Shown here in pieces: positions 24,042-49,259 of a stretch of 64,000 nucleotides of DNA (position 1 is the stretch's first letter; each line of letters opens with the position of its first letter). The stretch covers positions 3,073,001 through 3,137,000 of the forward strand of contig NZ_FNSK01000001.1 in assembly GCF_900105075.1 (NCBI RefSeq), written 5' to 3'. Made by a program: the position numbers and the translations under genes. The notes below the pieces were generated by a model, which saw only the letters and a list, made by a program, of their open reading frames with translations, was not told where the DNA came from and did not search any database. The stretch is from Rhodobacter sp. 24-YEA-8. GTDB taxonomy: Bacteria > Pseudomonadota > Alphaproteobacteria > Rhodobacterales > Rhodobacteraceae.

Positions 24042-25217
24042 TCAGACGGCCAGCAATTCGACCGCGACCCCCTGGCCGACGCCGATGCAAAGCGTGGCAA
24101 GCGCCGAGGCACCGCCCGTTTCTGCAAGCCGTCTTGCCGCGTTTGCGACGATGCGGGCGCCCGACATGCCGAGCGGATGGCCCATGCTGATGCCGCCGCC
24201 TTTGGCGTTGACGCGCGGATCAGCATCGCTGAGCCCCCAGGCCCGGGTACAGGCCAGAACCTGGGCAGCAAAGGCCTCGTTCAGCTCGATCACATCCTGA
24301 TCGGCGGGCGGCTTTGCGCCCCGTGCGACCAGGCGCTCTGTCGCCGCAATCGGGCCGATTCCCATGATCCGGGGCGCAACCCCGGCCGAGGCCGCGCGCC
24401 CGATCCGCGCCAAAGGCGTCAGGCCAAGCGTGCTGACGCCTTTGGCCGAGGCCAGCAGCACCGCCGCCGCACCATCATTCACGCCCGCCGCATTGCCTGC
24501 GGTCACCGTGCCGCCGTCGCGAAACGGTGCCGGCAGGGCAGCGAGCTTTTCAATTGAGGTCGCGCGGGGATGTTCGTCGGCACTGACCACGGTGTCACTT
24601 TTGCGGCCCCGGATCGTCACCGGAAGGATATCCGCCGCATGCCAGGCTGCATCATAGCGGGTCTGCGACGACAAAGCGTAAATGTCCTGATCCTCACGCG
24701 AGATGCCGTAGTCTTCCGCGACATTCTCGGCGGTCTCGGGCATCGACTCGATCCCGAACTCCTTTGCGATCCGCTTATTGACGAAGCGCCAGCCGATGGT
24801 CGTGTCATAGATCTCGGCCTGGCGGGCAAAGGCCGCATCCGCCTTGGGCATCACGAAAGGCGCCCGACTCATCGATTCCACACCGCCCGCGATGATCACA
24901 TCGGCCCCGTCCCGGATCGCCCGTGCCCCCGCAATCACCGCATCCATCCCCGAGGCACAAAGCCGGTTCACCGTCAGCCCCGGAACGGAAACATCCAGTC
25001 CTGACAACAGAACCGCCATCCGCGCGACATTGCGATTGTCCTCGCCCGCCTGGTTGGCGCAGCCAAAGATCACCTCATCCGGGGTCAGATCCGGATACAG
25101 CGCCAGCAGACCGTCGATCACCTGCGCCGCCATATCATCGGGCCGCACCAGGGCCAGCGCGCCGCCATAGCGCCCGATCGGCGTGCGGCGCATCGCGCAA
25201 AGAAAGACGTCATTCAT
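24042..25217 (-). CDS. Acyl-CoA thiolase (PaaJ/PcaF-like acetyl-CoA acyltransferase)
   Basis: A 391-residue thiolase that would cleave a 3-oxoacyl-CoA with CoA. The nucleophile is in [11 protein letters not shown], the active-site His in [16 protein letters not shown], and the second Cys in [13 protein letters not shown] is also present. Similarity is closest to 3-oxoadipyl-CoA thiolases of aromatic pathways. It is the last gene of the ten-gene 2-aminobenzoate operon, 34 bp after the CoA ligase. It probably performs the terminal thiolytic step on the ring-opened product, releasing acetyl-CoA. Confidence 0.9.
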
Positions 25218-25251
25218 CGGGAGGCTCCGGTTTCACAGAAAAAGTGGCCGT

Positions 25252-26877
25252 TCAGGATTTCGCGGGCTGGCGCAGCTGGAAGCGCTGGATCTTGCCGGTC
25301 TGGGTCTTGGGCAATGCGCCGGTAAAGATCACGCGGCGCGGGTATTTATAGGGGGCGATCACCTTTTTCACATGGTCCTGCAGCGCCCTGATCATCAGCG
25401 CATCACCTTCATGCCCCGGAGCGAGGATCACATGTGCCTCGACAATCTGGCCACGATCCGCGTCAGGCGCGCCGATCACCGCGCATTCCTGCACCGCCGG
25501 ATGCGAAAGCAGCGCCGCCTCGACCTCGGGCCCGGCGATATTGTAGCCGGCCGAGAGGATGATGTCGTCGGTCCGGGCGGCAAAGTGGAAATAGCCCTCT
25601 TCATCCTGCCAGAACGTGTCGCCGGTCAGGTTCCAGCCATCCCGGACATAAACCTCCTGGCGCGGGTCATCCATGTAGCGGCAGCCTGTCGGGCCGCGCA
25701 CCGCAAGGCGCCCGGTCTGACCGCGCGGCTTTTCGTTCATGTCTTCGTCAACGATCTTCGCCTCATAGCCGGTGATGGGCTTGCCGGTGCAGCCGGGGCG
25801 GTGATCGTCAAAGCGGTTGGTGATGAAGATATGCAGCATCTCGGTCGCGCCAATGCCGTCAAGCATCGGCTTGCCGGTCTTTGCCTGCCATTCCTCATAG
25901 ACCGGCGCCGGCAGGGTCTCGCCCGCCGAAACCGCCGCGCGCAGCGAGGAAAGATCCGCCCCCTGATCCATCGCGGCCAGCATCACGCGATAGGCGGTCG
26001 GCGCGGTAAAGCAGACGGTGGCGCGGTGCTCTTCGATCATGCCGATCATATTGGGCGGGCTGGCCTGTTCCAACAGCGCCGCCGTCGCGCCAAAGCGCAG
26101 CGGAAAGACCGCGAGGCCCCCCAGCCCGAAGGTAAAGGCCAGAGGCGGGCTGCCGATGAAGATATCATCGGGCGTGACGTTGAGGATTTCCTTTGCATAG
26201 CCATCCGCGATGATCAGCAGATCGCGGTGGAAATGCATCGTCGCCTTCGCGTCCCCGGTCGTCCCCGAGGTAAAGCCCAGAAGCGCCACATCGTCGCGCC
26301 CGGTCTGCACCGCGTCAAATCGGACGGGTTTTTTCAGCGCAATCCGGTCCAGTTCCGCATCATGATTGGCGGTGCCGTCAAAGCCGATCACTGTCGTAAG
26401 AAAAGCACTGTCATTCTTGCAATGGATCAGGTCTTCCATCAGCCGTGTATCGCAAAGCGCATGGCTGATCTCGGCCTTGTCGATCACCTTTGCCAGCTCG
26501 CCTGAGCGCAGCATCGGCATGGTATTGACCACCACCGCCCCCGCCTTGGTTGCCGCAAGCCAGCAGGCCACCATCGCCGGATTATTGGCAGACCGGATCA
26601 GCACCCGGTTGCCGGGCTTCAGACCATAATCCTCGACCAGGGCATGGGCGATGCGGTTGGTCCAGTCGGTCAGCTCCTTATAGGTGCGGCTGCGGCCATT
26701 GCCGATCAGCGCAATATGGTCACCAAAGCCCTTTTCGACCATGCGGTTGGTCAGCTCGACCCCCACATTCAGCCATTCGGGATAGTCAAAACCCGTCAGA
26801 TCCAGCCCCGGCCAGGTCTCTGTGGCGGGCAGGCGGTCGCGGGTGAAAGTGTCCAGATGGCCCGTTGGTCCCATCAT
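25252..26877 (-). CDS. 2-Aminobenzoate/benzoate-CoA ligase family protein
   Basis: A 541-residue ANL-superfamily acyl-CoA synthetase. The P-loop is GFTSGTTGDAKA, the A5 region DGIGATEMLHIF, the adenylate aspartate region VRDGWNLTGDTFW, and the hinge/C-terminal lysine region ALPKTQTGKIQRFQLR. The sequence falls in the benzoate / 2-aminobenzoate ligase group. With a 2-aminobenzoyl-CoA monooxygenase/reductase in the same operon, anthranilate is the most likely substrate: anthranilate + ATP + CoA to 2-aminobenzoyl-CoA. Benzoate or salicylate activation cannot be excluded from sequence. Confidence 0.88.
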   Translation of the reverse strand: MMGPTGHLDTFTRDRLPATETWPGLDLTGFDYPEWLNVGVELTNRMVEKGFGDHIALIGNGRSRTYKELTDWTNRIAHALVEDYGLKPGNRVLIRSANNPAMVACWLAATKAGAVVVNTMPMLRSGELAKVIDKAEISHALCDTRLMEDLIHCKNDSAFLTTVIGFDGTANHDAELDRIALKKPVRFDAVQTGRDDVALLGFTSGTTGDAKATMHFHRDLLIIADGYAKEILNVTPDDIFIGSPPLAFTFGLGGLAVFPLRFGATAALLEQASPPNMIGMIEEHRATVCFTAPTAYRVMLAAMDQGADLSSLRAAVSAGETLPAPVYEEWQAKTGKPMLDGIGATEMLHIFITNRFDDHRPGCTGKPITGYEAKIVDEDMNEKPRGQTGRLAVRGPTGCRYMDDPRQEVYVRDGWNLTGDTFWQDEEGYFHFAARTDDIILSAGYNIAGPEVEAALLSHPAVQECAVIGAPDADRGQIVEAHVILAPGHEGDALMIRALQDHVKKVIAPYKYPRRVIFTGALPKTQTGKIQRFQLRQPAKS

Positions 26878-26955
26878 GAGGTTAGCTCCCTGTTGGCCCC
26901 GCCGATGTCTGGTCGCTGTCTTGTCGCAGCTTGCGGGGGATGTTCTGTCTTATGG

Positions 26956-27354
26956 TCAGGCCGGGATCACGGCCGTGGCCTCGATCTCGACCTTGGCGCG
27001 GTCTTCCATCAGGGCGATGACCTGGACCACGGCCATGGCGGGGTAGTGGCGGCCGATGATCTCTTTGTAATGCGCGCCAAGACGCTTGAGCCCGCCGAGA
27101 TATTCGTCTTTGGTGGTGATATACCAGGTCAGCCGCACCAGATGTTCGGGCCTGGCGCCGGCTTCGGCCAGCACCGCGACGATATTGCGCAGGGTCTGCG
27201 CGGTCTGATCGACGAAATCATCGCTCTCGAATTCGCATTGCGCATTCCAGCCGACCAGCCCGCCGGTCACGACGATCCGGCCCTCGGCGGCCATGCCATT
27301 CGCATAGCCTTTTGCGGGTTTCCAGCCTTCGGGATGCAGGGTCTGAATGCTCAT
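26956..27354 (-). CDS. RidA/YjgF-family enamine/imine deaminase
   Basis: A 132-residue RidA-family protein. Conserved parts include VVTGGLVGWNAQ, DFVDQTAQTLRNIVAVLAEAGA and LTWYITTKDEYL. The classical C-terminal Arg-Pro-E stretch is changed to AKVEIEATAVIPA, keeping the terminal Glu. RidA proteins hydrolyse reactive enamines/imines to ketone plus ammonia. Here the ring product of the monooxygenase/reductase, 2-amino-5-oxocyclohex-1-enecarbonyl-CoA, is an enamine, so this protein may catalyse or speed release of the amino group (inference). Its start overlaps the thioesterase stop by ATGA. Confidence 0.88.
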   Translation of the reverse strand: MSIQTLHPEGWKPAKGYANGMAAEGRIVVTGGLVGWNAQCEFESDDFVDQTAQTLRNIVAVLAEAGARPEHLVRLTWYITTKDEYLGGLKRLGAHYKEIIGRHYPAMAVVQVIALMEDRAKVEIEATAVIPA

Positions 27355-27773
27355 GGTTTCTCCTGAAATGCTATGATCCGGGCCCGGACATCCTCCGGCC
27401 AGGGATGGGATTGCCCCGATCCGTCAACATAGACCAGCGTCAGACCAGCGGTCAGACGGTGGCTGCCCGCGCCGTTCTCATCGGAATGATGCGCCTCGAT
27501 ATGGCAGGTGATCGAGGCGCGGCCGATCCGTTTGATGGTCAGCTGCCAGTCCAGCACCTCACCGAGGCGCGAGGGCGCATGGAATTCCGCTGTGACCTGG
27601 GCCAGCGGCACACCATTGCCGCCGGCCATCATCACCTCATAGGGCAGGCCCGCCACCTCCCGGAAAAAGTTCTCGGCAACCGAATTCGTCATCTCGAAAT
27701 AGCGCGGATAGAAGACGATCCCCGCCGGGTCGCAATGGTTGAACTCTATCCGGATGGGGCGGTGCCAGATCAT
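27351..27773 (-). CDS. 4-Hydroxybenzoyl-CoA thioesterase-family protein
   Basis: A 140-residue hotdog-fold acyl-CoA thioesterase. FNHCDPAGIVFYPRYFEM carries the family's active-site Asp-Pro-Ala-Gly motif, followed by a helix and strands with LTIKRIG and HRLTAGLTLVYV. Start ATG 27773 gives the usual N-terminus; the longer frame does not. Thioesterases in hybrid CoA pathways rescue CoA from dead-end thioesters such as 2-aminobenzoyl-CoA, and similar genes are known from 2-aminobenzoate and phenylacetate clusters. It lies 10 bp after the cupin gene and overlaps ridA by four bases. Confidence 0.88.
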   Translation of the reverse strand: MIWHRPIRIEFNHCDPAGIVFYPRYFEMTNSVAENFFREVAGLPYEVMMAGGNGVPLAQVTAEFHAPSRLGEVLDWQLTIKRIGRASITCHIEAHHSDENGAGSHRLTAGLTLVYVDGSGQSHPWPEDVRARIIAFQEKP

Positions 27774-27783
27774 TTCCCGTGCC

Positions 27784-28236
27784 TCATTCGTTGGCTTCGG
27801 GCGGCAGGAAATCAACCGCATGTGCAGCCGAAACGCGGACGACCTCTTCCACATCGGTCATGTTGTGCAACTGCTCGAACAAAGCGCGCAGATCTCCGGC
27901 AGGAGAGACCCAGAACAAAGCGCGCGACGGCACATCGCCCTTGTTGAAATAGCCATGCGGCACGCCTCTGGGCATCTTCACCAGATCGCCGGGCCGCGCC
28001 ACCGACCAGACACCATCGAGTTTCACATGCAGCTCGCCCTCCTGGACCAGAATGAATTCATCCTGGGTCGGGTGGATATGCACCGGCACGAACTGGCCCG
28101 GTTCGGAATTGGTCTCGAAGGAAAAAGTGCTGCCGCAATCGGCTTTCGGGAAATAGCGCTGGCCCAGAATGTTCCATTCCACGCCTTCGATGCCCGTACC
28201 CAGCCGGGTGATGCCGCCGTCAAGTGCTTTGGTCAT
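27784..28236 (-). CDS. Cupin-domain protein
   Basis: A 150-residue single-cupin protein. Motif 1 is VPVHIHPTQDEFILVQEGEL, with the metal ligands His-x-His and Glu, and motif 2 is PGDLVKMPRGVPHGYFN with the last His. No other domain is seen. The reaction is unknown: cupins in aromatic operons can be dioxygenases, isomerases or regulators of flux. It lies between acyl-CoA dehydrogenase (41 bp gap) and thioesterase (10 bp gap), so it belongs to the 2-aminobenzoate operon. ATG 28236 is preferred to ATG 28281, which would overlap the upstream gene. Confidence 0.8.
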   Translation of the reverse strand: MTKALDGGITRLGTGIEGVEWNILGQRYFPKADCGSTFSFETNSEPGQFVPVHIHPTQDEFILVQEGELHVKLDGVWSVARPGDLVKMPRGVPHGYFNKGDVPSRALFWVSPAGDLRALFEQLHNMTDVEEVVRVSAAHAVDFLPPEANE

Positions 28237-28277
28237 TGCCGTATTTCCCTGTTGTTGATGGTCGTCCTGAAATCCTG

Positions 28278-29411
28278 TCACAGAAGGCTGCGCGCAATCA
28301 CCACGCGCTGCACATCCGAGGCGCCCTCATAGATCCGGAGCGCGCGGATATCGCGGTAAAGCTCCTCGACCTTCATGCCGCTGCGCACCCCGTCACCGCC
28401 ATGCAGCTGCAGCGCCGCGTCAATCACCTCCTGGGCGGCCTCGGTCGCGTAAAGTTTCGCCATAGCAGCCTCGCGGCTGACCCGGGCGGCGCCCTGATCC
28501 TTGGTCCAGGCGGCCCGGTAGACCAGCAAAGCCGCCGCATCGATCTTGAGCGCCATATCGGCCAGATGCCCCTGCACCAGCTGCAGGGAAGACAGCGGTT
28601 CACCCTGGATCCGGCGGCTCTGCGTGCGGCTCAGCGCCTCATCCAGCGCGCGCCGTGCCATGCCCAAAGCCGCCGCCCCCACGGTCGAACGGAACACATC
28701 CAGCACCGACATGGCCTGTTTGAACCCGGCCCCCGCCGTGCCGATCAGCGCAGAATCGGGCAGGAATACCTGATCCAGTTTCAGCCGCGCCAGAGGATGC
28801 GGTGCCATCACCGAGATTCGTTCCGCGATTTCCAGCCCCGCCACATCGGCCGGCATCAGAAAGGCCGAAAGCCCGCGTGCGCCCGGCGCCTCGCCGCTGC
28901 GGGCAAAGATCACATAAAGATCCGCGATGCCCCCGTTCGAGATATAGGTCTTCTCACCAGAAAGCCGCCAGCCGCCCCCGACCTTTTCGGCCATGGTGGT
29001 GCTGTTGGCCACATCCGACCCCGATCCCGGCTCGGTCAGCGCAAAGGCTGAAATCGCCCGACCTTCCCGCGTCTTTTTCAGCCAGAGCCGCTGCTCGGGC
29101 GTGCCGAACAGCGAGACCGCTCCCATGCCAAGTCCCTGCATGGCAAAGGCAAAATCCGCCAGCGCATCATGGCGCGAAAGCGTCTCGCGGATCAGACACA
29201 GGCTCCTGACATCAAGCGTCTCGCCCGCATCGGCGCCTGAATGCCGCAGAAAACCCGCCGCCCCCAGATCCCGCACCAGGCCTTTGCAGGCGGTATCGAC
29301 ATCACTGTGATCCACCGGCAGATGCCCGGCGGCCCATTCCTCCAGCGCCGCTGACAACTCACGGTGACGCGTCTCAAAGAAGGGCCAATCCAGAAAACTG
29401 CGGTCGCTCAT
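28278..29411 (-). CDS. Acyl-CoA dehydrogenase
   Basis: A 377-residue FAD enzyme of the acyl-CoA dehydrogenase family. [18 protein letters not shown] and [10 protein letters not shown] are the substrate/FAD motifs, and [12 protein letters not shown] plus [10 protein letters not shown] are the C-terminal FAD region and catalytic-Glu loop. In the Azoarcus-type 2-aminobenzoate route a dehydrogenase acts on the ring-reduced CoA ester, which fits this gene's place. The start ATG 29411 touches the end of a dispersed repeat (29411-29462), whose own ATG gives only Met-Lys-stop. Confidence 0.9.
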
Positions 29412-29462
29412 TTCATCTGTCCAAAAATATCCTGCGGGGGTCCGGGGGTGCAAAACCCCCGG
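29411..29462 (-). repeat. 52-bp dispersed intergenic repeat, copy A
   Basis: Read on the minus strand, this 52-bp element begins with a 7-bp hairpin (CCGGGGG / CCCCCGG), continues with ACCCCCGCAGGATATTTTT and ends in GGACAGATGAAA. The plus-strand copy at 45655-45706 matches at 46 of 52 positions. It fills most of the gap between the enoyl-CoA hydratase and acyl-CoA dehydrogenase genes. It resembles the hairpin plus ATATTT elements I know as common between Rhodobacterales genes. Confidence 0.75.
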
Positions 29463-29484: not shown

Positions 29485-30312
29485 TCAGTCGCCCTGGAAT
29501 ACGGGTTTTTCTTTCGCGACAAAGGCGTGATAGGCACGTTCAAAGTCCCGGGTCTGCATGCAGATCGCCTGGGCCTGGGCCTCGGCCTCGATCGCCTGTT
29601 CCAGCCCCATATTCCATTCCTGGTTCAGCTGGGTCTTGGTGATGCCATGCGCAAAGACCGGCCCTGACGCGATCCGTGTGGCGAGTTTCAGTGCCTCCGC
29701 CTCCAGCGCCTCCGCCGGATGGACCCCGTTCCAGAACCCCCAGGCCGCACCTTCCTCAGCCGACATCACCCGTCCGGTATATAAAAGCTCAGCCGCGCGG
29801 CCCTGACCGATGATCCGGGGCAGCATGGCGCAGGCGCCCATATCGCAGCCAGCGAGGCCTACCCGGGTGAACAGAAACGCGCATTTCGCCTCGGGCGTCG
29901 CCAGCCGCAGATCCGAGGCCATGGCGATGATTGCGCCAGCGCCGACACAGATCCCGTCCACCGCCGAAATGATCGGCTTGCCGCAGCCGATCATCGCCTT
30001 GACCAGATCCCCGGTCATGCGGGTAAAGGCCAGAAGATCCTTCATATCCATGCCGACCAGCGGGCCGATAATGTCATGCACATCGCCGCCCGAACAGAAA
30101 TTGCCGCCATTCGGGGCAAAGACCACCACATCCACATCTGTCGCATAGACCAGCGCCCGAAATGTGTCGCGCAGCTCGGCATAGCTCTCGAAGGTCAGCG
30201 GGTTCTTGCGGTCCGGCCGGTTCAGCCGCAGCGTCGCGATCCGGTCCTTCACCTCCCAGAGGAAATGTTCCGGTTTCAGCCCGGCCAGTTCGGTCCTCGT
30301 GAGATTGCTCAT
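29485..30312 (-). CDS. Enoyl-CoA hydratase/isomerase family protein
   Basis: A 275-residue crotonase-fold protein. [15 protein letters not shown], the oxyanion-hole segment [14 protein letters not shown] and [16 protein letters not shown] are clear, and the position equivalent to the hydratase catalytic Glu region reads [10 protein letters not shown]. The second catalytic Glu of classical hydratases is not evident there, so it may be an isomerase, hydrolase or ring-opening enzyme rather than a simple hydratase. It overlaps the upstream marR by ATGA within the 2-aminobenzoate operon. Confidence 0.87.
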
Positions 30313-30740
30313 TTCTTCATCGCCTTCTTCAGAATTTCCGTCAGAACATCGACATCCGCATCGTCGAGCCCGGCAAAGATCTTCGCCACCTCTGCCTCAT
30401 GCCCCGAGGCGAGGGCTTCGAACTGGCTCAGCCCTTCGGGCGTCAACCCGACATAGACCGTGCGGCGGTCGGTCTCGGACGGGCGGCGCGCGACCAGCCC
30501 GTCTTTCTCCAGCCGGTCCACCACGGTCGTTGCGTTGCCGTTCGAGACCAGCAAAAGCCGGCTCAGCTCGCTCATGGTGCAGCCTTCGCGCCGCCGGTAA
30601 AGCGCCGCCAGCACGTCAAAGCGCGGCAATGTCGTGTCATGCGTCAGCCGCAGGAATTCGCGCAGACCGGCTTCAGAACTGCGCGTCACTGCCAGCATCC
30701 GGATCCAGAGTTTCAGCCTGCGTTTGGAACCCTCACTCAC
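30309..30740 (-). CDS. MarR-family regulator of the 2-aminobenzoate operon
   Basis: A 143-residue MarR protein. The winged helix is [44 protein letters not shown], with the Asp-Arg-Arg of the wing. Flanking helices form the dimer. It overlaps both neighbours by ATGA (SDR upstream, enoyl-CoA hydratase downstream), so it is embedded in the operon and probably autoregulatory. The inverted repeat at 33809-33835 in front of the operon is a candidate operator. Its ligand is probably a CoA thioester or anthranilate (inference from related regulators). Confidence 0.88.
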
Positions 30741-31477
30741 ACCTCGCCTCCTGCAATGGCCAATGCCTGACCATTGATGCCCTCACTGCCCACACCGCAC
30801 AACCACAGCGCGGCAGAGGTCACTTCGGCGGGCTGGATCAGGCGCAGTTGCGGATTGGTGGCGGCAAGTGTCCTGCGCGCATCATCCGCATTCATCCCGG
30901 TCTTTCCGACGATATTTGCGACCGAACGGTCGGTCATCTCGGTATCAAGAAAGCCCGGGCAAAGCGCATTCACCGTGACCGGTTTCTTCGCGACTTCCAG
31001 CGCCAGGCTTTTGACCATGCCGACCACGCCATGTTTCGCCGCCGCATAGGGTGCGACATAGGCATAGCCTTTCAGCCCGGCGGTCGAGGCGACCGCAATC
31101 AGCCGCCCCCAGCCGTCAAACTGCGACAGCGCCTCGCGGAAGGTCAGGAAAACCCCGGTGAGATTGACCGCAAGCATCGCGTTCCAGTCCGCCAGCGAGG
31201 TCTTCGCCAGAGGCGCCGAGGCTGCGGCCCCGGCATTGGCGATCACAATGTCGCAGCGCCCGGCCTCGGTGAACAGGCGTTTCACATCCGCCTCATCCGT
31301 CACATCGGCCTGCAGGGCCTGCGCGCCAATCGGCCCGGCCACCGCCTGCAAAGGTGCGAGACGGCGCCCGCAGATCACCACTTCGGCGCCCCGGGCGGCA
31401 AAGCCCCGGGCGAGATCGGCCCCGACGCCGGTGCCTCCGCCGGTGATCAATACGCGCTTGCCTGCAAGATCCGTCAT
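30737..31477 (-). CDS. Short-chain dehydrogenase/reductase
   Basis: A 246-residue classical SDR. The NAD(P) loop is ITGGGTGVGADLARG, the structural NAG is IVIANAGA, the catalytic Ser is in AVASTAGLKG, Tyr-x-x-x-Lys is YAAAKHGVV, and the C-terminal PG motif is CPGFLDTEMTD. It probably reduces or oxidises a hydroxy/oxo group of a ring-reduced or ring-opened CoA ester in the pathway. ATG 31477 overlaps the monooxygenase/reductase stop by ATGA. A longer frame to 31552 is inside that gene and rejected. Confidence 0.88.
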   Translation of the reverse strand: MTDLAGKRVLITGGGTGVGADLARGFAARGAEVVICGRRLAPLQAVAGPIGAQALQADVTDEADVKRLFTEAGRCDIVIANAGAAASAPLAKTSLADWNAMLAVNLTGVFLTFREALSQFDGWGRLIAVASTAGLKGYAYVAPYAAAKHGVVGMVKSLALEVAKKPVTVNALCPGFLDTEMTDRSVANIVGKTGMNADDARRTLAATNPQLRLIQPAEVTSAALWLCGVGSEGINGQALAIAGGEV

Positions 31478-33759: not shown

Positions 33760-33808
33760 AGCCGGAACTCCCTGATTTGCGCCGATCCTTGCGGCTTTCA
33801 GAATAAAT

Positions 33809-33835: not shown

Positions 33836-33864
33836 TATTCATCGTGAGAGGGCATTCTGCCATC

Positions 33865-39465: not shown

Positions 39466-39939
39466 TTAAACCTCTTGCTTGCAGATATTGGCCAGCATTT
39501 TTTGCAAAGTGCCGACGAAAGCATGCCGCTCGTCATCGGAGATCCCGCGAAACATCCGCTCGGCGGCGAGGGCCATATGCGGCCAGATCCGTTCAAACGC
39601 GGCACGGCCGAGATCGGTCGAATAAATCCGCGTGGCGCGGCTGTCATTCGGGTCGGCTTCACGCCGCACGAGCCCTTCGGCCTGAAGCTGGTCGAGCGCG
39701 CGTGACAGTGTCGATTGCTCGGTCACGGCGAGTTCCGCCAGCTCGCGGATCAGCGGGCCGTCCATCACGGAAAGCACGCCAAGCGCCCGCATCTTGGCGG
39801 TGGTCAGGCCCATATCGGCCATCTCGCTGCGCAAAATGCCGTTATACTGGCCCATCAGCCGGTTCATCAGATAGGGGGGGAAGGAAGACAGCCCGATCTG
39901 GCCAAGGCGCTGCGCGGGGGCAGGGGGTTCACTGCTCAT
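39466..39939 (-). CDS. MarR-family regulator of the isatin/2-oxoacid module
   Basis: A 157-residue MarR protein. LTTAKMRALGVLSVMDGPLIRELAELAVTEQSTLSRALDQLQAEGLVRREADPNDSRATRIYSTD spans the winged helix with the conserved Asp-x-Arg wing. It is not closely similar to the other MarR at 30309-30740. It overlaps the flavoprotein upstream by ATGA and lies 3 bp before iorA. The bidirectional promoter at 42293-42462 is its likely target. MarR control is known for bacterial auxin-catabolism loci, which agrees with an indole-type substrate (inference). Confidence 0.87.
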   Translation of the reverse strand: MSSEPPAPAQRLGQIGLSSFPPYLMNRLMGQYNGILRSEMADMGLTTAKMRALGVLSVMDGPLIRELAELAVTEQSTLSRALDQLQAEGLVRREADPNDSRATRIYSTDLGRAAFERIWPHMALAAERMFRGISDDERHAFVGTLQKMLANICKQEV

Positions 39940-42292: not shown

Positions 42293-42462
42293 ATCCGTTC
42301 TCCCTGTCTGACCATCCGGTCTTTGATTGGTGTCCGGCGCGCCACCTGTTTTTCCAGGACCATTCCGGCGCGGCGTGACGCTTTTCTCAGCGCCTGTGAG
42401 AATCACGCTAGACAGAAATAAATGCGTTTGCAAATATATCTTAAAATGCAGGGATCAGAAAA
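42293..42462. promoter_or_regulatory. Bidirectional promoter region of the isatin-type module
   Basis: A 170-bp space separates the divergent isatin-hydrolase-like and flavoprotein genes. The part nearest the plus-strand gene (about 42415-42450) is AT-rich in contrast to its surroundings and contains the palindrome TTTGCAAA (42427-42434) within TGCGTTTGCAAATA. This is a plausible MarR site, but the symmetry is short, so the operator is not certain. Confidence 0.4.
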
Positions 42463-44040
42463 ATGTCCGACAGCTATGATGCGATCCTGATCGGGGCGGG
42501 GCATAACGCCCTTGCCTGTGCATTGCACCTTGCAGCAAAGGGTTGGAAAGTCGGGCTTTTCGAGCAGGCCTCTGCCCCGGGTGGTGCGGTGAAGACCGGT
42601 GAATATACCCTGCCGGGCTTTCGCCACGACTGGGCGGCAATGAACCTGAACCTCTTCGCCGGATCGGCGTTTTATAAGGATTATGGGCAGGAGCTGGCGC
42701 GGCATGGCTGCACGTTCCTGCCGGTGTCAAAGCCCTTTGCCTCGGCTTTTCCGGATGGAACCTGGCTTGGCGTGACCACGGATCGCGCCGAAACCCTCGC
42801 GCGGATCAAAGCCGAGGATCCCGCAGATGCCGAGGCCTGGGCAGGGCTGATTGAAAGCTTTCCGCAAACTGCCGAAGCGATTGGCGGCATCCTTTCAATG
42901 CCGATGAAATTCAATGCGATTGCATATTTCATGTTTAAAGTGCTGCACCGCAACAAAATCGGTGGCAGTCTGGATATTGCGCAGTTCATGGCGCAGACGC
43001 CGCGCCGCTTTCTGACAAAGACCTTCCGTTCGCCAAAGATGCAGGCGCTTCTGGGGGCCTGGGGGCTGCATCTCGATTATGCGCCCGATGTCGCGGGGGG
43101 CGGTATTTTTCCCTATCTCGAGGGAATGGTTGCACAAAATTTCGGGATGATGCTGGGCCAGGGCGGTGCAGACACCATCATCCGCGCCATGGTCGCGGCA
43201 ATTGAGGCGCGAGGCGGGCGGGTCGAATGTGGCGCCAGCGTCAGCCGCATTCTGCATGAGAATGGCAAGGCGAGCGGGATTGAACTGGCCGACGGGCGCC
43301 GCATTGCAGCGAGAAAAGCGGTGATTGCGGGGGTCGCGCCGCAGGCGCTCAGCCGGCTGACCGGCGCGACGGAGCCGCGTTTCGACAAGGCGATGACCGA
43401 TTACGCCTACGCGCCGGGCACGATGATGATTCATCTGGCGATGGACAGCCTGCCCGACTGGGCGGCGGGGGAGGAACTGAAGCGTTTCGCCTATATCCAT
43501 CTTGCGCCCAGCCTTGATCAGCAGGCGCGGGTTTATCAGCAGGCCCAGGCCGGGCTTTTGCCTGATGAACCGATCCTGGTGGTGGGCCAGCCGACCGGCC
43601 AGGATCCGTCGCGCGCGCCGGAGGGCAAGCACATCCTCTGGGTGCAGGTGCGGATGGTGCCGGGCGAGATCAAAGGCGATGCGGCGGGCCAGATCACCGC
43701 GCGCAACTGGGAGGCGGCCACCGCGCCGATGTCCGAGCGTGCGCTGGATATTCTGGAGCGCTACGCGCCGGGCACGCGCGCGAAGATCCTTGGGAAACGT
43801 GTGGTCTCGCCCCTGGATCTGGAGGCGGAGAATCCCAATCTGGTAGGTGGCGACCAGGTTTGCGGCAGCCACCATATTTCGCAGAATTTCATGTTCCGCC
43901 CGGCGCGGGGTCATTCCGATGGCTCGACCGCGCTGAAAAACCTGCATCTGACCGGCGCGGCGGTCTGGCCCGGCGCTGGCACCGGCGCGGGGCCGGGCTA
44001 TCTGCTGGCCCGAAAGCTGGCGGGGAGGGCGGCCCGGTAA
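42463..44040 (+). CDS. FAD-dependent oxidoreductase, phytoene-desaturase-like (copy 2)
   Basis: A 525-residue paralogue of the flavoprotein at 39936-41495. The N-terminus is AILIGAGHNALACALHLAAK with FEQASAPGGAVKT. Shared internal blocks include EGKHILWVQV, EIKGDAAGQITARNW, LEAENPNLVGGD and a C-terminal HLTGAAVWPGAGTGAGPGYL. The two copies could form one heteromeric enzyme or act on successive intermediates. It is the first plus-strand gene of the module and is followed after 82 bp by the ABC importer genes. Confidence 0.82.
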   Translation: MSDSYDAILIGAGHNALACALHLAAKGWKVGLFEQASAPGGAVKTGEYTLPGFRHDWAAMNLNLFAGSAFYKDYGQELARHGCTFLPVSKPFASAFPDGTWLGVTTDRAETLARIKAEDPADAEAWAGLIESFPQTAEAIGGILSMPMKFNAIAYFMFKVLHRNKIGGSLDIAQFMAQTPRRFLTKTFRSPKMQALLGAWGLHLDYAPDVAGGGIFPYLEGMVAQNFGMMLGQGGADTIIRAMVAAIEARGGRVECGASVSRILHENGKASGIELADGRRIAARKAVIAGVAPQALSRLTGATEPRFDKAMTDYAYAPGTMMIHLAMDSLPDWAAGEELKRFAYIHLAPSLDQQARVYQQAQAGLLPDEPILVVGQPTGQDPSRAPEGKHILWVQVRMVPGEIKGDAAGQITARNWEAATAPMSERALDILERYAPGTRAKILGKRVVSPLDLEAENPNLVGGDQVCGSHHISQNFMFRPARGHSDGSTALKNLHLTGAAVWPGAGTGAGPGYLLARKLAGRAAR

Positions 44041-44122: not shown

Positions 44123-45643
44123 ATGATGAAACTCAACCGCAGAGCCTTGCTGCAGCTCTCTGCTGCCAGTGTCACACTCGGCGTCTTCAGCCTGCCTGCG
44201 CTGGCTGAGATCGACGAGCTGGTGATCGCCTATAACGTCACGCTGCCCAGCTGGGACCCGACCACCGGCCCGAGTGCGGTGAACCCGACGATCCAGGGCA
44301 TTTACCAGTCGGTCTTTGACCAGTTCATTCTGCAACAGCCCGATCTGAAACCGGCGCCGGGGCTTTTGACCGAATGGGGCTGGAACGAGGATTACAGCCA
44401 GATCTGGATGGTGGTGCGCGAGGGTGTCAAATGGCATGACGGCTCGGACTTCACCGCCGAGGACGTCGCCTGGAGCCTGGCGCGGGTGGCAGACCCGGCC
44501 ACCGGCAGCCCGATCCAGTTCGTCTGGGGTACGCTGGAAAACCACCGGGTCGAGGGCAATCGTGTCATCGCCGATGTGAAGCAATTCGACCCCACGATCT
44601 TCAAATGGATGTATTTCCTGACCGGCTATGTGCTCCCCAAGACCTATTATGAAAAGGTCGGCGCGCAAGGTTTCGAGGCGGCACCGATCGGCACCGGCCC
44701 CTATATGGTTGAGAAATTCGAGCGCAATGCCTTTGTCCGGTTGAAGGCGAATGAGGCCTATTGGGGCGGCGCGCCCGAGTTCAAAACGGTGACGATCAAA
44801 TTCGTGACCGATGCGGCGGCGCGGGTGGCGGAAATCGAATCCGGCAACAGCCATGTCACGCTGGAAATGCCCTATGAGGAATATGACCGCCTTAAGGGCT
44901 CGATGAACGGCGTGGCGACGCCCATCTCGGATATCGGGATGATTTTCCTCAATGATATTGACGTGATGCTGGACCCGAATGTCCGCAAGGCCGCCGTTCA
45001 TGCGATTGACAAACAGGCGATCATCGACCGGCTGCTGTCGGGTTACGGCGTGAAAATCGACACGCTGGAGACGCCGGAATATGAGGCCTATGACCCGTCG
45101 ATCACTGTCGATTACAACCCGGAAAAGGCGGTCGAATTGCTGGCGGCCTCGGGCTATTCGACAGACAATCCGGTGAAGTTCAAAATCCAGACCACGCGGG
45201 GCTTCAAGCCCAAGGATTACGAGATGATCCAGGCGATTGTGGGTCTGTGGCGGCGCGTGGGGATCGAGGCCGAGATCGAGGTCTATGAGATCGCCAAACA
45301 TTACGAGCTGCGCGCGGCCGATCAGCTGGCGCCGGCGGCGTTTTACAACTGGGGGAACTCGGTCGGCGACCCGACCACGGGGACCGGGTTCGCGATGTAC
45401 GGGCCGAGCCCGCATTCGGTCTGGGACGGGCAGGATCTGATCGACATGATCGATCCGCTCTGGGGTGAGAAGGACGAGGCGAAGCGGATCGCGGGCTGGA
45501 AGGCGGTGGACCGGTTCATCGCGGAAGAGGCCCTGGTGATCCCGCTGTTGCAATATGTGCAGCCTATCCTCTCGGCGAAGGGTGTGGTGGTCACGCCGCA
45601 TGCTTCGGGCGCGCTGTTGCCGCATCTGATGACGCGCGGCTGA
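44123..45643 (+). CDS. ABC importer substrate-binding protein, peptide/nickel (family 5) type
   Basis: A 506-residue periplasmic solute-binding protein of family 5. The signal peptide has a twin-arginine-like start (LNRRALLQLSAASVTLGVFS, cleavage near ALA-E30). WHDGSDFTAEDVAWSLARV, APIGTGPYMVEKFE and VRKAAVHAIDKQAI are family motifs. Family members bind peptides but also many catabolic substrates. Its place next to the flavoprotein and isatin-hydrolase-like genes suggests the imported compound feeds that pathway rather than being a peptide (inference). Confidence 0.9.
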   Translation: MMKLNRRALLQLSAASVTLGVFSLPALAEIDELVIAYNVTLPSWDPTTGPSAVNPTIQGIYQSVFDQFILQQPDLKPAPGLLTEWGWNEDYSQIWMVVREGVKWHDGSDFTAEDVAWSLARVADPATGSPIQFVWGTLENHRVEGNRVIADVKQFDPTIFKWMYFLTGYVLPKTYYEKVGAQGFEAAPIGTGPYMVEKFERNAFVRLKANEAYWGGAPEFKTVTIKFVTDAAARVAEIESGNSHVTLEMPYEEYDRLKGSMNGVATPISDIGMIFLNDIDVMLDPNVRKAAVHAIDKQAIIDRLLSGYGVKIDTLETPEYEAYDPSITVDYNPEKAVELLAASGYSTDNPVKFKIQTTRGFKPKDYEMIQAIVGLWRRVGIEAEIEVYEIAKHYELRAADQLAPAAFYNWGNSVGDPTTGTGFAMYGPSPHSVWDGQDLIDMIDPLWGEKDEAKRIAGWKAVDRFIAEEALVIPLLQYVQPILSAKGVVVTPHASGALLPHLMTRG

Positions 45644-45654
45644 GTGTGGTGGCG

Positions 45655-45706
45655 CCGGGGGCTTCGCGCCCCCGGACCCCCGCGGGATATTTAAGGACAG
45701 ATGAAA
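45655..45706 (+). repeat. 52-bp dispersed intergenic repeat, copy B
   Basis: This copy has the same architecture as 29411-29462: hairpin CCGGGGG / CCCCCGG, then ACCCCCGCGGGATATTTAA and GGACAGATGAAA. Six of 52 positions differ, two of them in the spacer after ATATTT. It lies between the substrate-binding protein and the first permease and supplies a Shine-Dalgarno-like AAGGA and an ATG (45701) in frame with the permease. Confidence 0.75.
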
Positions 45707-45739
45707 GGGCCGGGCCTGCGGCGCTTTCGGGATGTGGCG

Positions 45740-46750
45740 ATGCAATTTTTCAGAACGGTAATGGGGCGGCTGGTGACGACATTGATCACGCTTTTTGGCG
45801 TGGCGGTGATTGTTTTTGTCGTCATCCGGGTGGTGCCGGGCAATCCGATTGCGATGATGCTGCCACCGGGCGCGAGCGAGGCCGATATCGCGCGGCTGAA
45901 CGCGCTTTACGGCTTTGACCGCTCGATTATGGAGCAGTTTTTCATCTGGCTGGGCGGGGTTGTGCAGGGCGATTTCGGCACCTCGATCACCGCGCGCCAG
46001 CCGGTGACGGCGATGGTTTTGAGGCGGCTTCCGGCGACGCTGGAACTCTCGGTCATGGCGCTGGCCATGGCCTGCGTCATCGGGGGGGGCCTCGCGCTTT
46101 GGGGCACAAGGCGGCGCGAGACCAGCACCGAGGCGGCGATTGATATTGCCAATGGGATGGCGCTTTCGGTGCCGGATTTCCTCTGGGGGCTTTTGCTGAT
46201 CCTGGGGTTTGGCGTGCTCTGGCCGGTGTTTCACATCTCGGGGCGGGTGACGCCGTCGCTGGATCTGCCCTTTGTGACGAATTTCTACCTGTTCGAGAGC
46301 CTGATCCGGCTGCGGTTCGATCTTTGGGCCGATATTGTCAGCCATATGTTCCTGCCGGCGCTGGCGCTGGCGATCCCGCTGGCGGCGATCATCGGGCAGC
46401 TTTTGAAGCAGAGCCTGAAAGAGACCATGCATCTGGATTACGTCACCCTGGCAAGGACGCGGGGCTATGGCGAGACGCGGGTCATTTTGCGTGAGGCCCT
46501 GCGCAATGCGGTGTTGCCGACGCTGACGCTGGTCGGCGTGCAGTTCACCTTTCTGATCGGCGGCACCGTCATCATCGAGCGGCTGTTTTCCTATGAAGGG
46601 CTTGGCAATATGGCCATTGAGGCGGTGATCAACCGCGATCTGCCGCTGATCCAGGGCATCGTGATCCTCTTCGCGCTGATCTTCACCGGGGTGAACCTGG
46701 TGGTTGATCTGCTTTATGCCGTTCTGAACCCGAGGCTGCGTCATGGCTGA
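45740..46750 (+). CDS. ABC importer permease, DppB-like
   Basis: A 336-residue inner-membrane permease with about six hydrophobic segments. The N-terminal MQFFRTVMGRLVTTLITLFG and VVPGNPI match DppB-type permeases. The EAA loop is near TLARTRGYGETRVILREALRNAVLP. The exact start is uncertain: ATG 45740 gives the family N-terminus, whereas in-frame ATG 45701 adds 13 residues and lies inside a dispersed repeat, though with a nearby AAGGA. It pairs with the DppC-like permease, which it overlaps by 8 bp. Confidence 0.88.
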   Translation: MQFFRTVMGRLVTTLITLFGVAVIVFVVIRVVPGNPIAMMLPPGASEADIARLNALYGFDRSIMEQFFIWLGGVVQGDFGTSITARQPVTAMVLRRLPATLELSVMALAMACVIGGGLALWGTRRRETSTEAAIDIANGMALSVPDFLWGLLLILGFGVLWPVFHISGRVTPSLDLPFVTNFYLFESLIRLRFDLWADIVSHMFLPALALAIPLAAIIGQLLKQSLKETMHLDYVTLARTRGYGETRVILREALRNAVLPTLTLVGVQFTFLIGGTVIIERLFSYEGLGNMAIEAVINRDLPLIQGIVILFALIFTGVNLVVDLLYAVLNPRLRHG

Positions 46751-47594
46751 TGCCCGATCGCTTGTGAAACGCCGGGCGGGGCCGCGGCTCTGGCTTTCGG
46801 CGGGCTGGATTGGTCTTGTGGTGCTGGCGGCGATCTTTGCGCCGCTGGTTGCGCCGCAGGATCCACTGGCGCAGGATCTGTTCCTGGGCCGGATGCCGCC
46901 CTTCTGGATGGCGGGGGCGGAACCTGGCTACTGGCTCGGGACTGACAGTCTGGGCCGTGATGTGCTGAGCCGGATCATCTATGGCGCGCGGGTGGCGCTG
47001 TCGGTCGCGCTGGTGGCGGGAGTGGTGACCTGTATCCTTGGCGCTGGGCTCGGGCTGATGGCAGGCTATATGCGCGGCTGGGTCGATACCGTGATTTCGC
47101 GCTTTATCGACATCTGGATGGCCTTTCCGCCGGTGCTGTTTTCCATCCTTTTGATCGCCGTGATGGGGCCGGGGCTCACCTCGATCATCGTGGCGATTGT
47201 GGTGATCGACTGGACGCGCTTTGCCCGGGTGATCCGGGCCGAGGCGATGTGCCAGGGGGCGATGGACTATGTCGCCTCGGCGCGCGTGGTGGGGCGGGGC
47301 CGGATTTCCACCATGCTGACCGAGATCCTGCCCAATGTCCTGCCGACCATCGTGGTGCTTCTGACGCTGGAGATGGGCATTGCGGTGATCATCGAGGCGA
47401 TCCTGAGCTTTGTGAACCTCTCGATCCCGACCGATGACCCGACCTGGGGCGGGATGATTTCCGAGGGGCGGATCTCGATCAACCAGGCATGGTGGGTGCT
47501 GGTCTTCCCGCTGATCACGCTTTTCCTGACCGTTCTCGCCTTTTCCCAGCTGGGGGAAGGGCTGAAGAACCGCTACGATCCGGTGCTGCGATGA
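46743..47594 (+). CDS. ABC importer permease, DppC-like
   Basis: A 283-residue permease of the DppC/OppC type with an N-terminal membrane anchor and about five further segments. Family features are HWLGTDSLGRDV-like sequence (WLGTDSLGRDVLSRIIYGAR), the EAA loop around YVASARVVGRGRISTMLTEILPN, and SIPTDDPTWGGMISEGR. It forms the transmembrane pore with the DppB-like subunit. Start ATG 46743 overlaps the previous gene by 8 bp; its end overlaps the next by ATGA. Confidence 0.9.
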   Translation: MADARSLVKRRAGPRLWLSAGWIGLVVLAAIFAPLVAPQDPLAQDLFLGRMPPFWMAGAEPGYWLGTDSLGRDVLSRIIYGARVALSVALVAGVVTCILGAGLGLMAGYMRGWVDTVISRFIDIWMAFPPVLFSILLIAVMGPGLTSIIVAIVVIDWTRFARVIRAEAMCQGAMDYVASARVVGRGRISTMLTEILPNVLPTIVVLLTLEMGIAVIIEAILSFVNLSIPTDDPTWGGMISEGRISINQAWWVLVFPLITLFLTVLAFSQLGEGLKNRYDPVLR

Positions 47595-48463
47595 ATTATC
47601 TTGAGCTGAAAGGCCTGTCGGCGCGGATCACCCGGCAGAACCACCCGCTTTTGCGCAATGTTTCGCTCGCGGTTGCGCCGGGCGAGGTGCGCGGGCTGGT
47701 TGGGGAAAGCGGCGCCGGCAAGTCGATGATCGGCAAAGCGGTACTGGGGATCCTGCCGAAAGCGGTGGAGCTGACCGGGGGCGAGATACTCCTCGGCGGT
47801 GAAGATCTGCAGCGCCTGTCGGAGCGGGACCGGCGGCACCGGATCGGCCAGACCTGCGCCCTGATCCCACAGGATCCGCTGACGGCGCTGAACCCCTCGC
47901 GCCGGATCGCGCCGCAGATTACTGACCGGCTGGTGGACATTCTGGGCTGGGACCGGGCGCGGGCGGTGGCGCGGGCCGAAGAGTTGCTGGATGAGGTCAG
48001 GATCCAGGACCCGGCGCGGGTGATGCGGGCCTATCCGCATGAGCTTTCGGGGGGGATGCGGCAGCGTATTCTGATCGCTTCGGCCTTTGCGGCTGAACCA
48101 AAGCTGATCGTCGCCGATGAGCCGACGACCGCGCTGGATGTGACGGTGCAAAAGCAGATCCTGAAACTGATCAGGGATATGCAGACAAGGCACGGCACGG
48201 CGCTGTTGTTCGTGACCCATGATCTGGGCGTGGTGTCCAAGGTCTGCAACCGGCTTTCGGTGCTTTATGGCGGCATGGTGGTCGAGGATAATGACGTGCC
48301 CGGCTTCTTTGCCGGCCCGCGCCATGCCTATTCGCGGGCACTGCTGGCGGCGACGCCGAAATATACCGATCCGGGCGCCAGCCTGACCCCGGTGCCTGAC
48401 CAGGTGATCGCGGAGGTGAGGGCGGAGATTGACGCATACGACCGGGGGGTGGCGCATGTCTGA
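47591..48463 (+). CDS. ABC importer ATPase, DppD-like
   Basis: A 290-residue ATPase. Walker A is GESGAGKS, the Q-loop IPQDPLTALNP, the signature LSGGMRQR, Walker B LIVADEPTTALD, and the switch His VTHDLGVV. The C-terminus carries the oligopeptide-type extension (HAYSRALLAATP) found in DppD/OppD, though without an obvious Cys cluster. ATG 47591 overlaps the DppC-like stop by four bases; a longer frame is rejected. It energises import with the DppF-like partner. Confidence 0.92.
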   Translation: MNYLELKGLSARITRQNHPLLRNVSLAVAPGEVRGLVGESGAGKSMIGKAVLGILPKAVELTGGEILLGGEDLQRLSERDRRHRIGQTCALIPQDPLTALNPSRRIAPQITDRLVDILGWDRARAVARAEELLDEVRIQDPARVMRAYPHELSGGMRQRILIASAFAAEPKLIVADEPTTALDVTVQKQILKLIRDMQTRHGTALLFVTHDLGVVSKVCNRLSVLYGGMVVEDNDVPGFFAGPRHAYSRALLAATPKYTDPGASLTPVPDQVIAEVRAEIDAYDRGVAHV

Positions 48464-49259
48464 CGAGCTTTACCGCGTCGAGGGGCTGCGCCTCTCGCTT
48501 CCCGATCTGAACCGCAAACCGCTTTGGGGGCCGGCGCCCCGCAATGAGATCCTGAAGGGGCTCGATTTCAGCATCGCGAAGGGTGAGATCATCGGGATTG
48601 TCGGTGGCTCGGGGTCGGGGAAATCGACCCTCGGGCGCTGTCTCGTGCGGCTCCTGGAGCCGACGGCGGGGCGCGTTCTGTTTGACGGGCAGGACATCAC
48701 GCATCTGGATGAGGCGGCGCTGCGGCCGCTGCGGCGAAGGTTCCAGATGATCTTTCAGGACCCGATGTCATCCCTGAACCCGCGCCACCGGGTCGGCCAG
48801 CTGATCGCCGCGCCTTTGCGCCTGCATGGCGTGGCGGATGTGCGGGGCCGTGTGGCCGAGGCGCTGGATCTCGTCGGCTTCCCGCAGGAGATGGCCGGCC
48901 GCTACCCGCATGAGATGTCGGGCGGTCAGCGTCAGCGGGTGGGCATCGCCCGCGCCATCGCCCTGCGTCCGGATTTCATCCTTGCAGATGAGATCGTCTC
49001 GGGCCTCGATGTCTCGAGCCAGGCGCAGGTGCTGAACCTGCTGGAGCGGCTGGTGAAAGAGCTTGGTCTGACGCTGGCCTTTATCAGCCATGACCTGAGC
49101 GTGATCCGGAGGCTGTGTTCCCGGATCATGGTGCTTTACCAGGGCGAGATCGTCGAAGCATCTGATACGGCAGCACTGTTCGACCAGCCCCGCGCGGCCT
49201 ATACGAGGGAGCTCCTTGATGCGATCCCCTTGCCCGATCCGGATCAGGCCTGGGCCTGA
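48456..49259 (+). CDS. ABC importer ATPase, DppF-like
   Basis: A 267-residue ATPase. Walker A is GGSGSGKST, the Q-loop FQDPMSSLNPRHRV, the signature MSGGQRQRVGIARA, Walker B ILADEIVSGLD (the usual Pro after Glu is Ile) and the switch ISHDLSVI. Start ATG 48456 overlaps the DppD-like gene by 8 bp. It is the last gene of the flavoprotein-importer transcript; no clear terminator follows within 100 bp. Confidence 0.91.
   Translation: MSDELYRVEGLRLSLPDLNRKPLWGPAPRNEILKGLDFSIAKGEIIGIVGGSGSGKSTLGRCLVRLLEPTAGRVLFDGQDITHLDEAALRPLRRRFQMIFQDPMSSLNPRHRVGQLIAAPLRLHGVADVRGRVAEALDLVGFPQEMAGRYPHEMSGGQRQRVGIARAIALRPDFILADEIVSGLDVSSQAQVLNLLERLVKELGLTLAFISHDLSVIRRLCSRIMVLYQGEIVEASDTAALFDQPRAAYTRELLDAIPLPDPDQAWA

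Follow-up and report, generated by a model that had tools for sequence, protein, structure and literature searches.

In a 2018 indole review, whose retrieved passages also name the 2-aminobenzoyl-coenzyme A (CoA) pathway (PMC6221969), both the part that isatin plays in the breakdown of indole and what becomes of it are listed as open. Isatin-hydrolysing activity has been published for the enzyme of PDB entry 4j0n, isatin hydrolase B of Roseibium (Labrenzia) aggregatum, and the signature of such enzymes is given, in the part of the paper retrieved, as a metal motif HxG[T/A]HxDxPxH, a GLAS/GLQC motif, and a W-x-W/F-x-W pocket (PMC6117287). Beside these systems we set a 64,000-nucleotide stretch of DNA from Rhodobacter sp. 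24-YEA-8 (the window: positions 3073001-3137000 of contig 1, in a genome of 5.0 Mb), in which an island at 24042-49259 consists of two neighbouring units, an isatin module and a 2-aminobenzoyl-CoA-type operon.

We read the whole as a two-module degradation island for an indole-type compound, which would pass through isatin, isatinate, the oxidoreductase IorAB, and anthraniloyl-CoA to central metabolites, and we give this reading a probability of roughly 0.55. An ATP-binding cassette (ABC) importer would take up the indolic substrate, and two flavoproteins, A and B, may oxidise it to isatin without an oxygenase of the Rieske type found in auxin-degradation (iad) loci. Isatin hydrolase would then open the ring to isatinate, which IorAB may decarboxylate oxidatively to 2-aminobenzoyl-CoA (anthraniloyl-CoA), the electrons passing to its iron-sulfur (Fe-S) centres. 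From there, as the gene families suggest, the CoA operon would carry anthraniloyl-CoA through a monooxygenase/reductase and beta-oxidation-like steps to central metabolites, its CoA ligase being used when free anthranilate arrives. Of two MarR-family regulators, MarR2 would control the isatin module from a divergent promoter and MarR1 the CoA operon.

The two units and their genes

The isatin module has 11 genes. On one side stand IorB-IorA-MarR2-flavoprotein A-isatin hydrolase; flavoprotein B and five genes for a peptide-type ABC importer run in the opposite direction. Genes were identified by protein-family profile searches, with bit scores judged against each family's cut-off. Every gene class named in an earlier reading of this DNA (the original prediction) was recovered by such searches within the island. 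Positions are those of the window.

35783..37324, minus strand: IorB-like subunit with DUF6537, overlapping the IorA stop (NF006179, 674 bits, above the cut-off of 348; PF01558, PF20169)
37321..39462, minus strand: IorA-like thiamine pyrophosphate (TPP) subunit with C-terminal Fe-S-type cysteines (TIGR03336, 281 bits, below the cut-off of 650.9)
39466..39939, minus strand: MarR2, probable regulator of the isatin module (PF12802; best PDB matches 3cjn, 6.5e-52, then 7kym, 9.9e-21)
39936..41495, minus strand: flavoprotein A, CrtO/CrtI-like (NF045689, 164 bits, below the cut-off of 1000; PF01593, PF13450)
41501..42292, minus strand: isatin hydrolase, type B (PDB 4j0n, E 6e-132; metal, GLAS, and W-x-W motifs)
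42400..42438, no strand assigned: conserved 39-bp element lying between isatin hydrolase and the divergently transcribed flavoprotein B (76 of 77 intergenic regions)
42463..44040, plus strand: flavoprotein B, CrtO/CrtI-like (family searches; AlphaFold model)
44123..45643, plus strand: SBP_bac_5 solute-binding protein (PF00496)
45701..46750, plus strand: ABC permease (PF00528, PF19300)
46743..47594, plus strand: ABC permease (NF045474, 222 bits, below the cut-off of 300)
47489..48463, plus strand: ABC ATPase, true start probably later (DppD/NikD-type matches below cut-offs)
48429..49259, plus strand: ABC ATPase, true start probably later (OppF/NikE-type matches below cut-offs)

The isatin hydrolase of the window is 70% identical to the 4j0n enzyme and has the same motifs, with HSGTHFDVPHH at the metal site together with GLAS and WAWNW, and it presumably hydrolyses isatin to isatinate. 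The 4j0n chain itself (261 of 263 residues compared) is encoded exactly in Roseibium aggregatum IAM 12614 (locus L130), beside IorB, IorA, MarR2, flavoproteins A and B, and the ABC importer, in the order seen in the window. The isatin module thus includes the crystallised isatin hydrolase B and supplies its genomic setting; the retrieved passages of PMC6117287 contain neither "operon" nor "gene cluster" and do not mention this context or the partner genes. Three start codons were moved after the proteins had been read, those of isatin hydrolase (42292), the monooxygenase/reductase (33759), and IorB (37324); the first agrees with the N-terminal start of 4j0n.

Both flavoproteins miss the cut-offs of phytoene desaturase and CrtO ketolase (TIGR02734, 107 and 131 bits against 238; NF045689, 164 and 168 bits against 1000). 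The AlphaFold model of flavoprotein B (pLDDT 79.4) has the gamma-carotenoid desaturase 4rep as its closest PDB entry (TMq 0.76), and a carotenoid-desaturase-like fold is predicted. At a guess, the two proteins may desaturate or ketolate a ring carbon of an indolic or oxindolic compound; if true, they would represent a new way of making isatin. A second tandem pair of CrtO-like flavoproteins occurs elsewhere in the genome (C1:2833320-2836422 and 2838188-2839953; L047, L048), beside two Rieske alpha genes, and similar tandem pairs were seen in other genomes of the order. As for the importer, its solute-binding protein resembles peptide-, nickel-, heme-, and agrocinopine-binding proteins, and the substrate is not readable from it because this is a generic peptide/nickel family.

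The second unit comprises the following genes.

24042..25217, minus strand: thiolase, 3-oxoadipyl-CoA thiolase-like, at the end of the CoA operon (NF006551, 552 bits, below the cut-off of 605; Pfam thiolase N and C)
25252..26877, minus strand: aryl-CoA ligase, probable 2-aminobenzoate-CoA ligase (benzoate-CoA ligase family TIGR02262, 341 bits, below the cut-off of 375)
26956..27354, minus strand: RidA-family protein (PF01042, above cut-off)
27351..27854, minus strand: 4HBT thioesterase-like protein (PF13279, above cut-off)
27784..28281, minus strand: cupin protein (PF07883, above cut-off)
28278..29453, minus strand: acyl-CoA dehydrogenase (PF00441 and PF02770, above cut-off)
29485..30312, minus strand: enoyl-CoA hydratase family protein (NF006107, 482 bits, above the cut-off of 330)
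30309..30740, minus strand: MarR1, regulator within the CoA operon (PF12802)
30737..31477, minus strand: short-chain dehydrogenase/reductase-type oxidoreductase, start set at an internal ATG overlapping the preceding stop (PF00106)
31474..33759, minus strand: bifunctional flavin adenine dinucleotide (FAD) monooxygenase/old-yellow-enzyme protein, probable 2-aminobenzoyl-CoA monooxygenase/reductase (NF006101, 1251 bits, above the cut-off of 1078; C-terminal PF00724)
33844..34620, plus strand: enoyl-CoA hydratase (PF00378)
34622..35731, plus strand: 3-hydroxyacyl-CoA dehydrogenase (PF02737, PF00725)

The joining of FAD monooxygenase and old-yellow-enzyme domains in one protein (NF006101, PF00724) is the mark of a 2-aminobenzoyl-CoA operon. 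The NCBIfam label of the NF006101 family is salicylyl-CoA 5-hydroxylase/oxidoreductase, and 2-aminobenzoyl-CoA is the probable substrate here. An open reading frame (ORF) on the opposite strand, 31888-33819 (plus), was rejected as a gene; it has no family match, and the monooxygenase/reductase is encoded across from it.

Conservation of the isatin module and its promoter element

How constant is this arrangement? Named loci were taken as the best 80 of 551 flavoprotein B candidates. Of the 60 whose flanks are long enough on both sides, 59 carry every one of the ten partners of flavoprotein B. Upstream sequence suffices in 69 loci, and 67 of these have the complete left-hand set of five genes; downstream sequence suffices in 62, each of them with the five importer genes. 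The importer, which the original prediction had counted in, is thus a fixed part of the isatin module. The exceptions are L131, without IorAB, and L152, without IorAB, MarR2, and isatin hydrolase. Since the genes recur jointly in many genomes, mostly in the same order in the maps, their grouping is not due to chance. One such module stands in a record named Nocardioides marinus (L133), which is probably mislabelled or contaminated. CoA-operon genes (at least 55% identity) lie inside the flanks of at least 17 of the 80 loci; the true number may be higher, as no flank reaches beyond 10 kb or past the end of its contig. The two units stand side by side in a minority of genomes.

In a sample of 292 genomes of the order, a flavoprotein B ortholog occurs in 26, including our own; the others are 53-69% identical (G105 partial), and G171, with fragments only, was left out. 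The full 11-gene set is present in 19 of the other 25, and gene order is altered in G084, G192, G223, and G225. Incomplete surroundings have several forms: G265 ends at a contig edge, G139 is without IorAB and MarR2, G166 and G105 are split, G108 has no partners, and G254 has flavoprotein B in two pieces. Among the matches listed, the closest named relatives of flavoprotein B are in Paracoccus sp. IB05 (95%) and Pseudogemmobacter hezensis (89%), in a search that may omit records of the genome itself.

The same sample holds isatin hydrolase in 43 genomes, IorA in 46, the monooxygenase/reductase in 120, and the CoA ligase in 117, all of these 117 also with a monooxygenase/reductase match. The thresholds behind these counts are E<=1e-60 for isatin hydrolase (1e-50 in the class sample below), at least 60% identity for IorA (46 of 51 genomes at E<=1e-40, five at 30-54% being excluded), and E<=1e-150 for the ligase, which more divergent ligases could escape; monooxygenase/reductase counts include partial matches (G110 in the order; G394, G397, and G403 in the class). 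Not one of the 43 isatin-hydrolase genomes lacks IorA or the monooxygenase/reductase; in G002, G199, and G228 the match to the latter is no better than 47-48%. At genus level, 64 of 113 genera have the monooxygenase/reductase, and these 64 include all 29 with isatin hydrolase (p 1.8e-9); Fisher p-values at genome level are very small. The distance from IorA to isatin hydrolase is at most 20 kb in 40 of 43 genomes, and that from IorA to the monooxygenase/reductase at most 25 kb in 14 of 46.

A wider class sample (139 genomes besides our own) has isatin hydrolase in two, G292 and G355, both with IorA and the monooxygenase/reductase. IorA occurs there in 16 genomes and the monooxygenase/reductase in 22, with both in 12 (p 1.3e-8), mostly without isatin hydrolase, so that IorAB may serve further aryl-2-oxoacids. 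The identity of these IorA relatives is mostly 51-60%, and they are often found in genomes that also encode the monooxygenase/reductase. In the sampled genomes, then, isatin hydrolase implies IorAB, and the converse fails.

Between the divergent halves of the module lies the 39-bp element, with the consensus GAATCATGCTAGACAGATTTAAATGCATTTGCAAATATC; the 77 intergenic regions are that of the window and those of 76 named loci. It can be read as two promoter-like pairs that face each other about a dyad, each with a spacer of 17 bases, an arrangement that would suit a MarR operator, and it probably combines overlapping promoter-like sequences with a predicted MarR2 operator. The window has a single match (0 expected), with a score of 59.4; the next best site reaches -11.1, and the CoA operon is without the element. 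The score matrix was built from the 76 copies, so that independent tests come from loci outside them: the element scores 44.4 upstream of flavoprotein B on a Sulfitobacter indolifex plasmid and 38.1 in L152. In G166 and G105, where the flavoproteins stand apart from isatin hydrolase and IorAB on the same contig, it is found at both halves (43.1-44.4), and it also stands at the isatin hydrolase of G194 (47.1) and G171 (49.0). Only a similar core is seen in G084 (-8.6), G157 (-1.8), and G223 (-10.2); scores are below -11 in G225, G139, L131, G108, G254, Mesorhizobium, and Neorhizobium, and at most -17.1 in twelve loci without the isatin module. G192 gives no information, its scanned stretch having excluded the intergenic region.

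By this distribution the flavoproteins and importer belong with the isatin genes and not with the CoA operon. A single regulon for the whole island was ruled out, the element being at the isatin module only. The original prediction had seen one pathway. Its expectation that the isatin and anthraniloyl-CoA halves would occur together was borne out beyond chance, in every isatin-hydrolase genome of the order sample; its unity gave way to two modules with separate regulators, an element confined to one of them, and CoA genes in the flanks of only 17 of the 80 named loci, as a lower bound.

Isatin hydrolases are of two types. Type A (45-52% identical to the window enzyme) occurs in 23 genomes and type B (at least 62%) in 31, with both in 11; isatin-hydrolase domains of long fusion proteins are excluded from the type B locus counts. 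Type A has a Rieske beta subunit within 10 kb in 20 of its 23 genomes, which is what iad loci would show; of the rest, G228 lacks the subunit, and G265 and G139 carry it on a separate contig. For G078 the distance count takes in one of its two type A copies, and Rieske beta matches below the family cut-off were excluded, by which G187 alone was lost. The 20 genomes with type B only include two with a Rieske beta above the cut-off, neither near (on another contig in G098, 34 kb off in G157). Seven type B genomes are without flavoprotein B (G042, G117, G155, G157, G171 with its fragments, G194, and G211), and the upstream part therefore seems exchangeable. In G155, G211, and G042, no other fitting isatin-forming enzyme was found among eight ORFs scanned beside the isatin hydrolase. 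At L177:5463-11625, in G042, an isatin hydrolase-MarR2-IorAB cassette stands beside a branched-chain-type ABC permease, without flavoproteins, which suggests a swappable upstream part.

The fate of isatinate and competing readings

What, then, does IorAB do? IorA carries a GDG...N motif from residue 479, as expected for TPP, and Fe-S-type cysteines at 618, 624, 630, 654, 657, 660, and 670, and IorB a POR gamma domain, all features of IOR-type 2-oxoacid:ferredoxin oxidoreductases. IorA falls short of the indolepyruvate ferredoxin oxidoreductase alpha equivalog (281 against 650.9 bits, TIGR03336), and a PDB sequence search with it gave no match. Isatinate is 2-aminophenylglyoxylate, an aryl-2-oxoacid and thus of the substrate class of IOR-type enzymes; the formula of isatinic acid is C8H7NO3. 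Phenylglyoxylate oxidoreductase offers an analogue of the proposed step. IorAB is accordingly proposed, from its families, as an isatinate:acceptor oxidoreductase. The fuller version, to which we give somewhat less than an even chance, is that it may be decarboxylating and CoA-acylating, the common junction at which at least two isatin-forming routes, the Rieske iad route and one through the flavoproteins, would enter the anthraniloyl-CoA pathway without free anthranilate. If true, a dedicated isatinate-to-anthraniloyl-CoA enzyme would close the gap in the fate of isatin and explain the constant company of IorA and isatin hydrolase; the arrangement may also explain how the isatin branch joins central metabolism.

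IorAB could instead work upstream, on indolepyruvate or another aryl-2-oxoacid, while isatinate reaches anthranilate enzymatically or spontaneously and a CoA ligase takes over, an alternative we regard as unlikely. The family names of IorA and IorB speak for it, as does the restoration of anthranilic acid by a nine-gene Variovorax construct, iadC-K2. The same construct strongly accumulates C8H7NO3 and C7H7NO, and the first of these, not identified as isatinic acid in the retrieved text, speaks for the proposed step on isatinate (PMC12633357). The construct corresponds to genes 62-70 (PMC10374108, in part) and so is without iadA, gene 72 (PMC9613470, in part); from the numbering, iadB (gene 71) would also fall outside. 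Isatinate can therefore reach anthranilate without IorAB. The CoA ligase, which the direct IorAB route does not need, is retained in the window operon and in 41 of 43 isatin-hydrolase genomes, and IorA occurs without isatin hydrolase in three of 46 order genomes (G089, G184, and G289) and in 14 of 16 of the class sample. On the other hand, every isatin-hydrolase genome has IorA regardless of its upstream system, including iad-type loci that start from indole-3-acetate and need no indolepyruvate step. The two genomes with no ligase ortholog at E<=1e-150, G084 and G157, have IorA within 9 kb of the monooxygenase/reductase, and the module offers no other obvious isatinate-converting enzyme, the flavoproteins being conceivable candidates. 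Ten of the 11 genomes with both isatin-hydrolase types have one IorA match, and the other, G265, has two partial matches on two contigs that jointly span nearly the whole query; a single IorA alongside two isatin hydrolases suits a step downstream of isatin.

Could the flavoproteins and importer serve an unrelated substrate and merely share the locus? The unit is found without a nearby isatin hydrolase in L158, L152, Mesorhizobium loti, and Neorhizobium, two genomes (G108 and G254) have flavoprotein B and no isatin hydrolase at all, and isatin genes are missing from the surroundings of more distant relatives (Cedecea, one haloarchaeon, and Dietzia). Against this, 24 of the 26 flavoprotein B genomes have isatin hydrolase B, and the shared divergent promoter element marks both halves where they are separated (G166, G105); this explanation seems to us improbable. 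On the Mesorhizobium loti plasmid (L160), flavoprotein B and five importer genes stand near xanthine-dehydrogenase-type genes.

Another alternative, very unlikely in our view, has the island encode a tryptophan/kynurenine pathway to anthranilate, with the cyclase-family enzyme as N-formylkynurenine formamidase. In its favour are a weak match to the arylformamidase model TIGR03035 and the isatin-hydrolase-like domains found inside longer proteins of five related genomes, with a kynureninase-like domain in four of four scanned. Against it stand GLAS and W-x-W in place of the KynB I(L/I)E motif in both the window protein and the fused domains (motifs as in the retrieved part of PMC6117287), the membership of the crystallised isatin hydrolase B in the module, and the scan of the island's genes, which turned up neither kynureninase nor tryptophan dioxygenase.

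The fusion proteins deserve a word of their own (L187:8543-10534, L185:8712-10721, L184:7932-10001, L188:9792-11822, and L186:9761-11803). Their isatin-hydrolase domain is C-terminal and retains GLAS and W-x-W in all five, and the kynureninase-like aminotransferase-V domain is N-terminal in the four scanned. In L187 and L185 the fusion is followed by a two-cupin protein; L185, L186, and L187 have a peptide-type ABC importer in the vicinity, and L187 an M20 peptidase as well. One guess at a possible reaction is a pyridoxal phosphate-dependent retro-aldol cleavage of dioxindolylalanine to isatin and alanine.

To return to the two-module reading, several of the facts given above weigh against it as well: the retained ligase, the restored anthranilic acid and the unassigned C8H7NO3 of the Variovorax construct, IorA without isatin hydrolase, and flavoprotein B without isatin hydrolase in G108 and G254 or, with the importer, without nearby isatin genes in Mesorhizobium loti and Neorhizobium. 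To these are added the weak or missing element at type B isatin hydrolases without flavoprotein B (G155 13.0, G211 -31.4, G042 -13.2, G117 -13.1), p-values that overstate independence because genomes are related, and a genome search that scored the best few candidates per genome.

Beyond the island, the window encodes, past the importer genes, the large subunit of a phage-type terminase (50199-51854) and, at 53635-61324, a large molybdopterin oxidoreductase (58232-61324) with a nearby LysR regulator, a sigma-54-type response regulator, and a histidine kinase.

Comparison with described systems

The retrieved passages of PMC9613470, PMC11630574, PMC12633357, PMC10374108, PMC6117287, and PMC6221969, a limited literature search, describe neither the isatin module nor an IorAB activity on isatinate, and in the parts of the iad literature examined iadA and iadB have no function beyond a family name. 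The novelty of both is thus provisional, and an earlier description is possible. Fragmentary iad-like clusters in Sphingomonas and Sphingopyxis (PMC11630574, in part) are possibly related to the isatin module.

The iad auxin loci of Variovorax, Achromobacter, and Bradyrhizobium share the IorAB homologs iadA/iadB, a route through isatin and isatinic acid, and a MarR regulator (PMC9613470, in part); the iadA/iadB markers are present here as judged by protein family. They differ in having an IadDE-type Rieske pair and a type A isatin hydrolase, whereas the window has type B and no such pair; the two CrtO-like flavoproteins and the direct junction to the CoA operon are features of the window. The genome has no Ring_hydroxyl_B match, that is, no Rieske beta subunit and no IadDE-type alpha/beta pair, and filing the locus as iad was ruled out. 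The remark in the original prediction that no first-step oxygenase is visible thus extends to the whole genome for the iad type, while eight Ring_hydroxyl_A (Rieske alpha) matches lie outside the window and may conceivably have a role in the pathway.

Indole-3-acetate is not supported as the entry compound, for want of the iad-type pair and from the regulator itself. MarR2 has Asn32, Arg36, Met49, and Arg50 where the IadR pocket has Ser28, His32, Trp45, and Arg46 (3cdh alignment, transferred numbering), so that one residue of four, the Arg, is kept; indole-3-acetate as a MarR2 ligand is weakened accordingly.

The CoA operon presumably resembles the 2-aminobenzoyl-CoA pathway of Azoarcus and Cupriavidus, with which it shares, by gene families, the bifunctional monooxygenase/reductase, the CoA ligase, and beta-oxidation genes; it differs in being joined to isatin hydrolase and IorAB. 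The iif/ind indole clusters of Acinetobacter and Cupriavidus share a route to anthranilate and are said, in the retrieved passages, to lack genes that form or use isatin (PMC6221969). The anaerobic iaa indole-acetate pathway of Aromatoleum shares the end point, 2-aminobenzoyl-CoA, and is called highly divergent from iac and iad (PMC9613470, in part). Isatin hydrolase B of Labrenzia (Roseibium) aggregata has the same motifs as the window enzyme and is encoded in an equivalent module.

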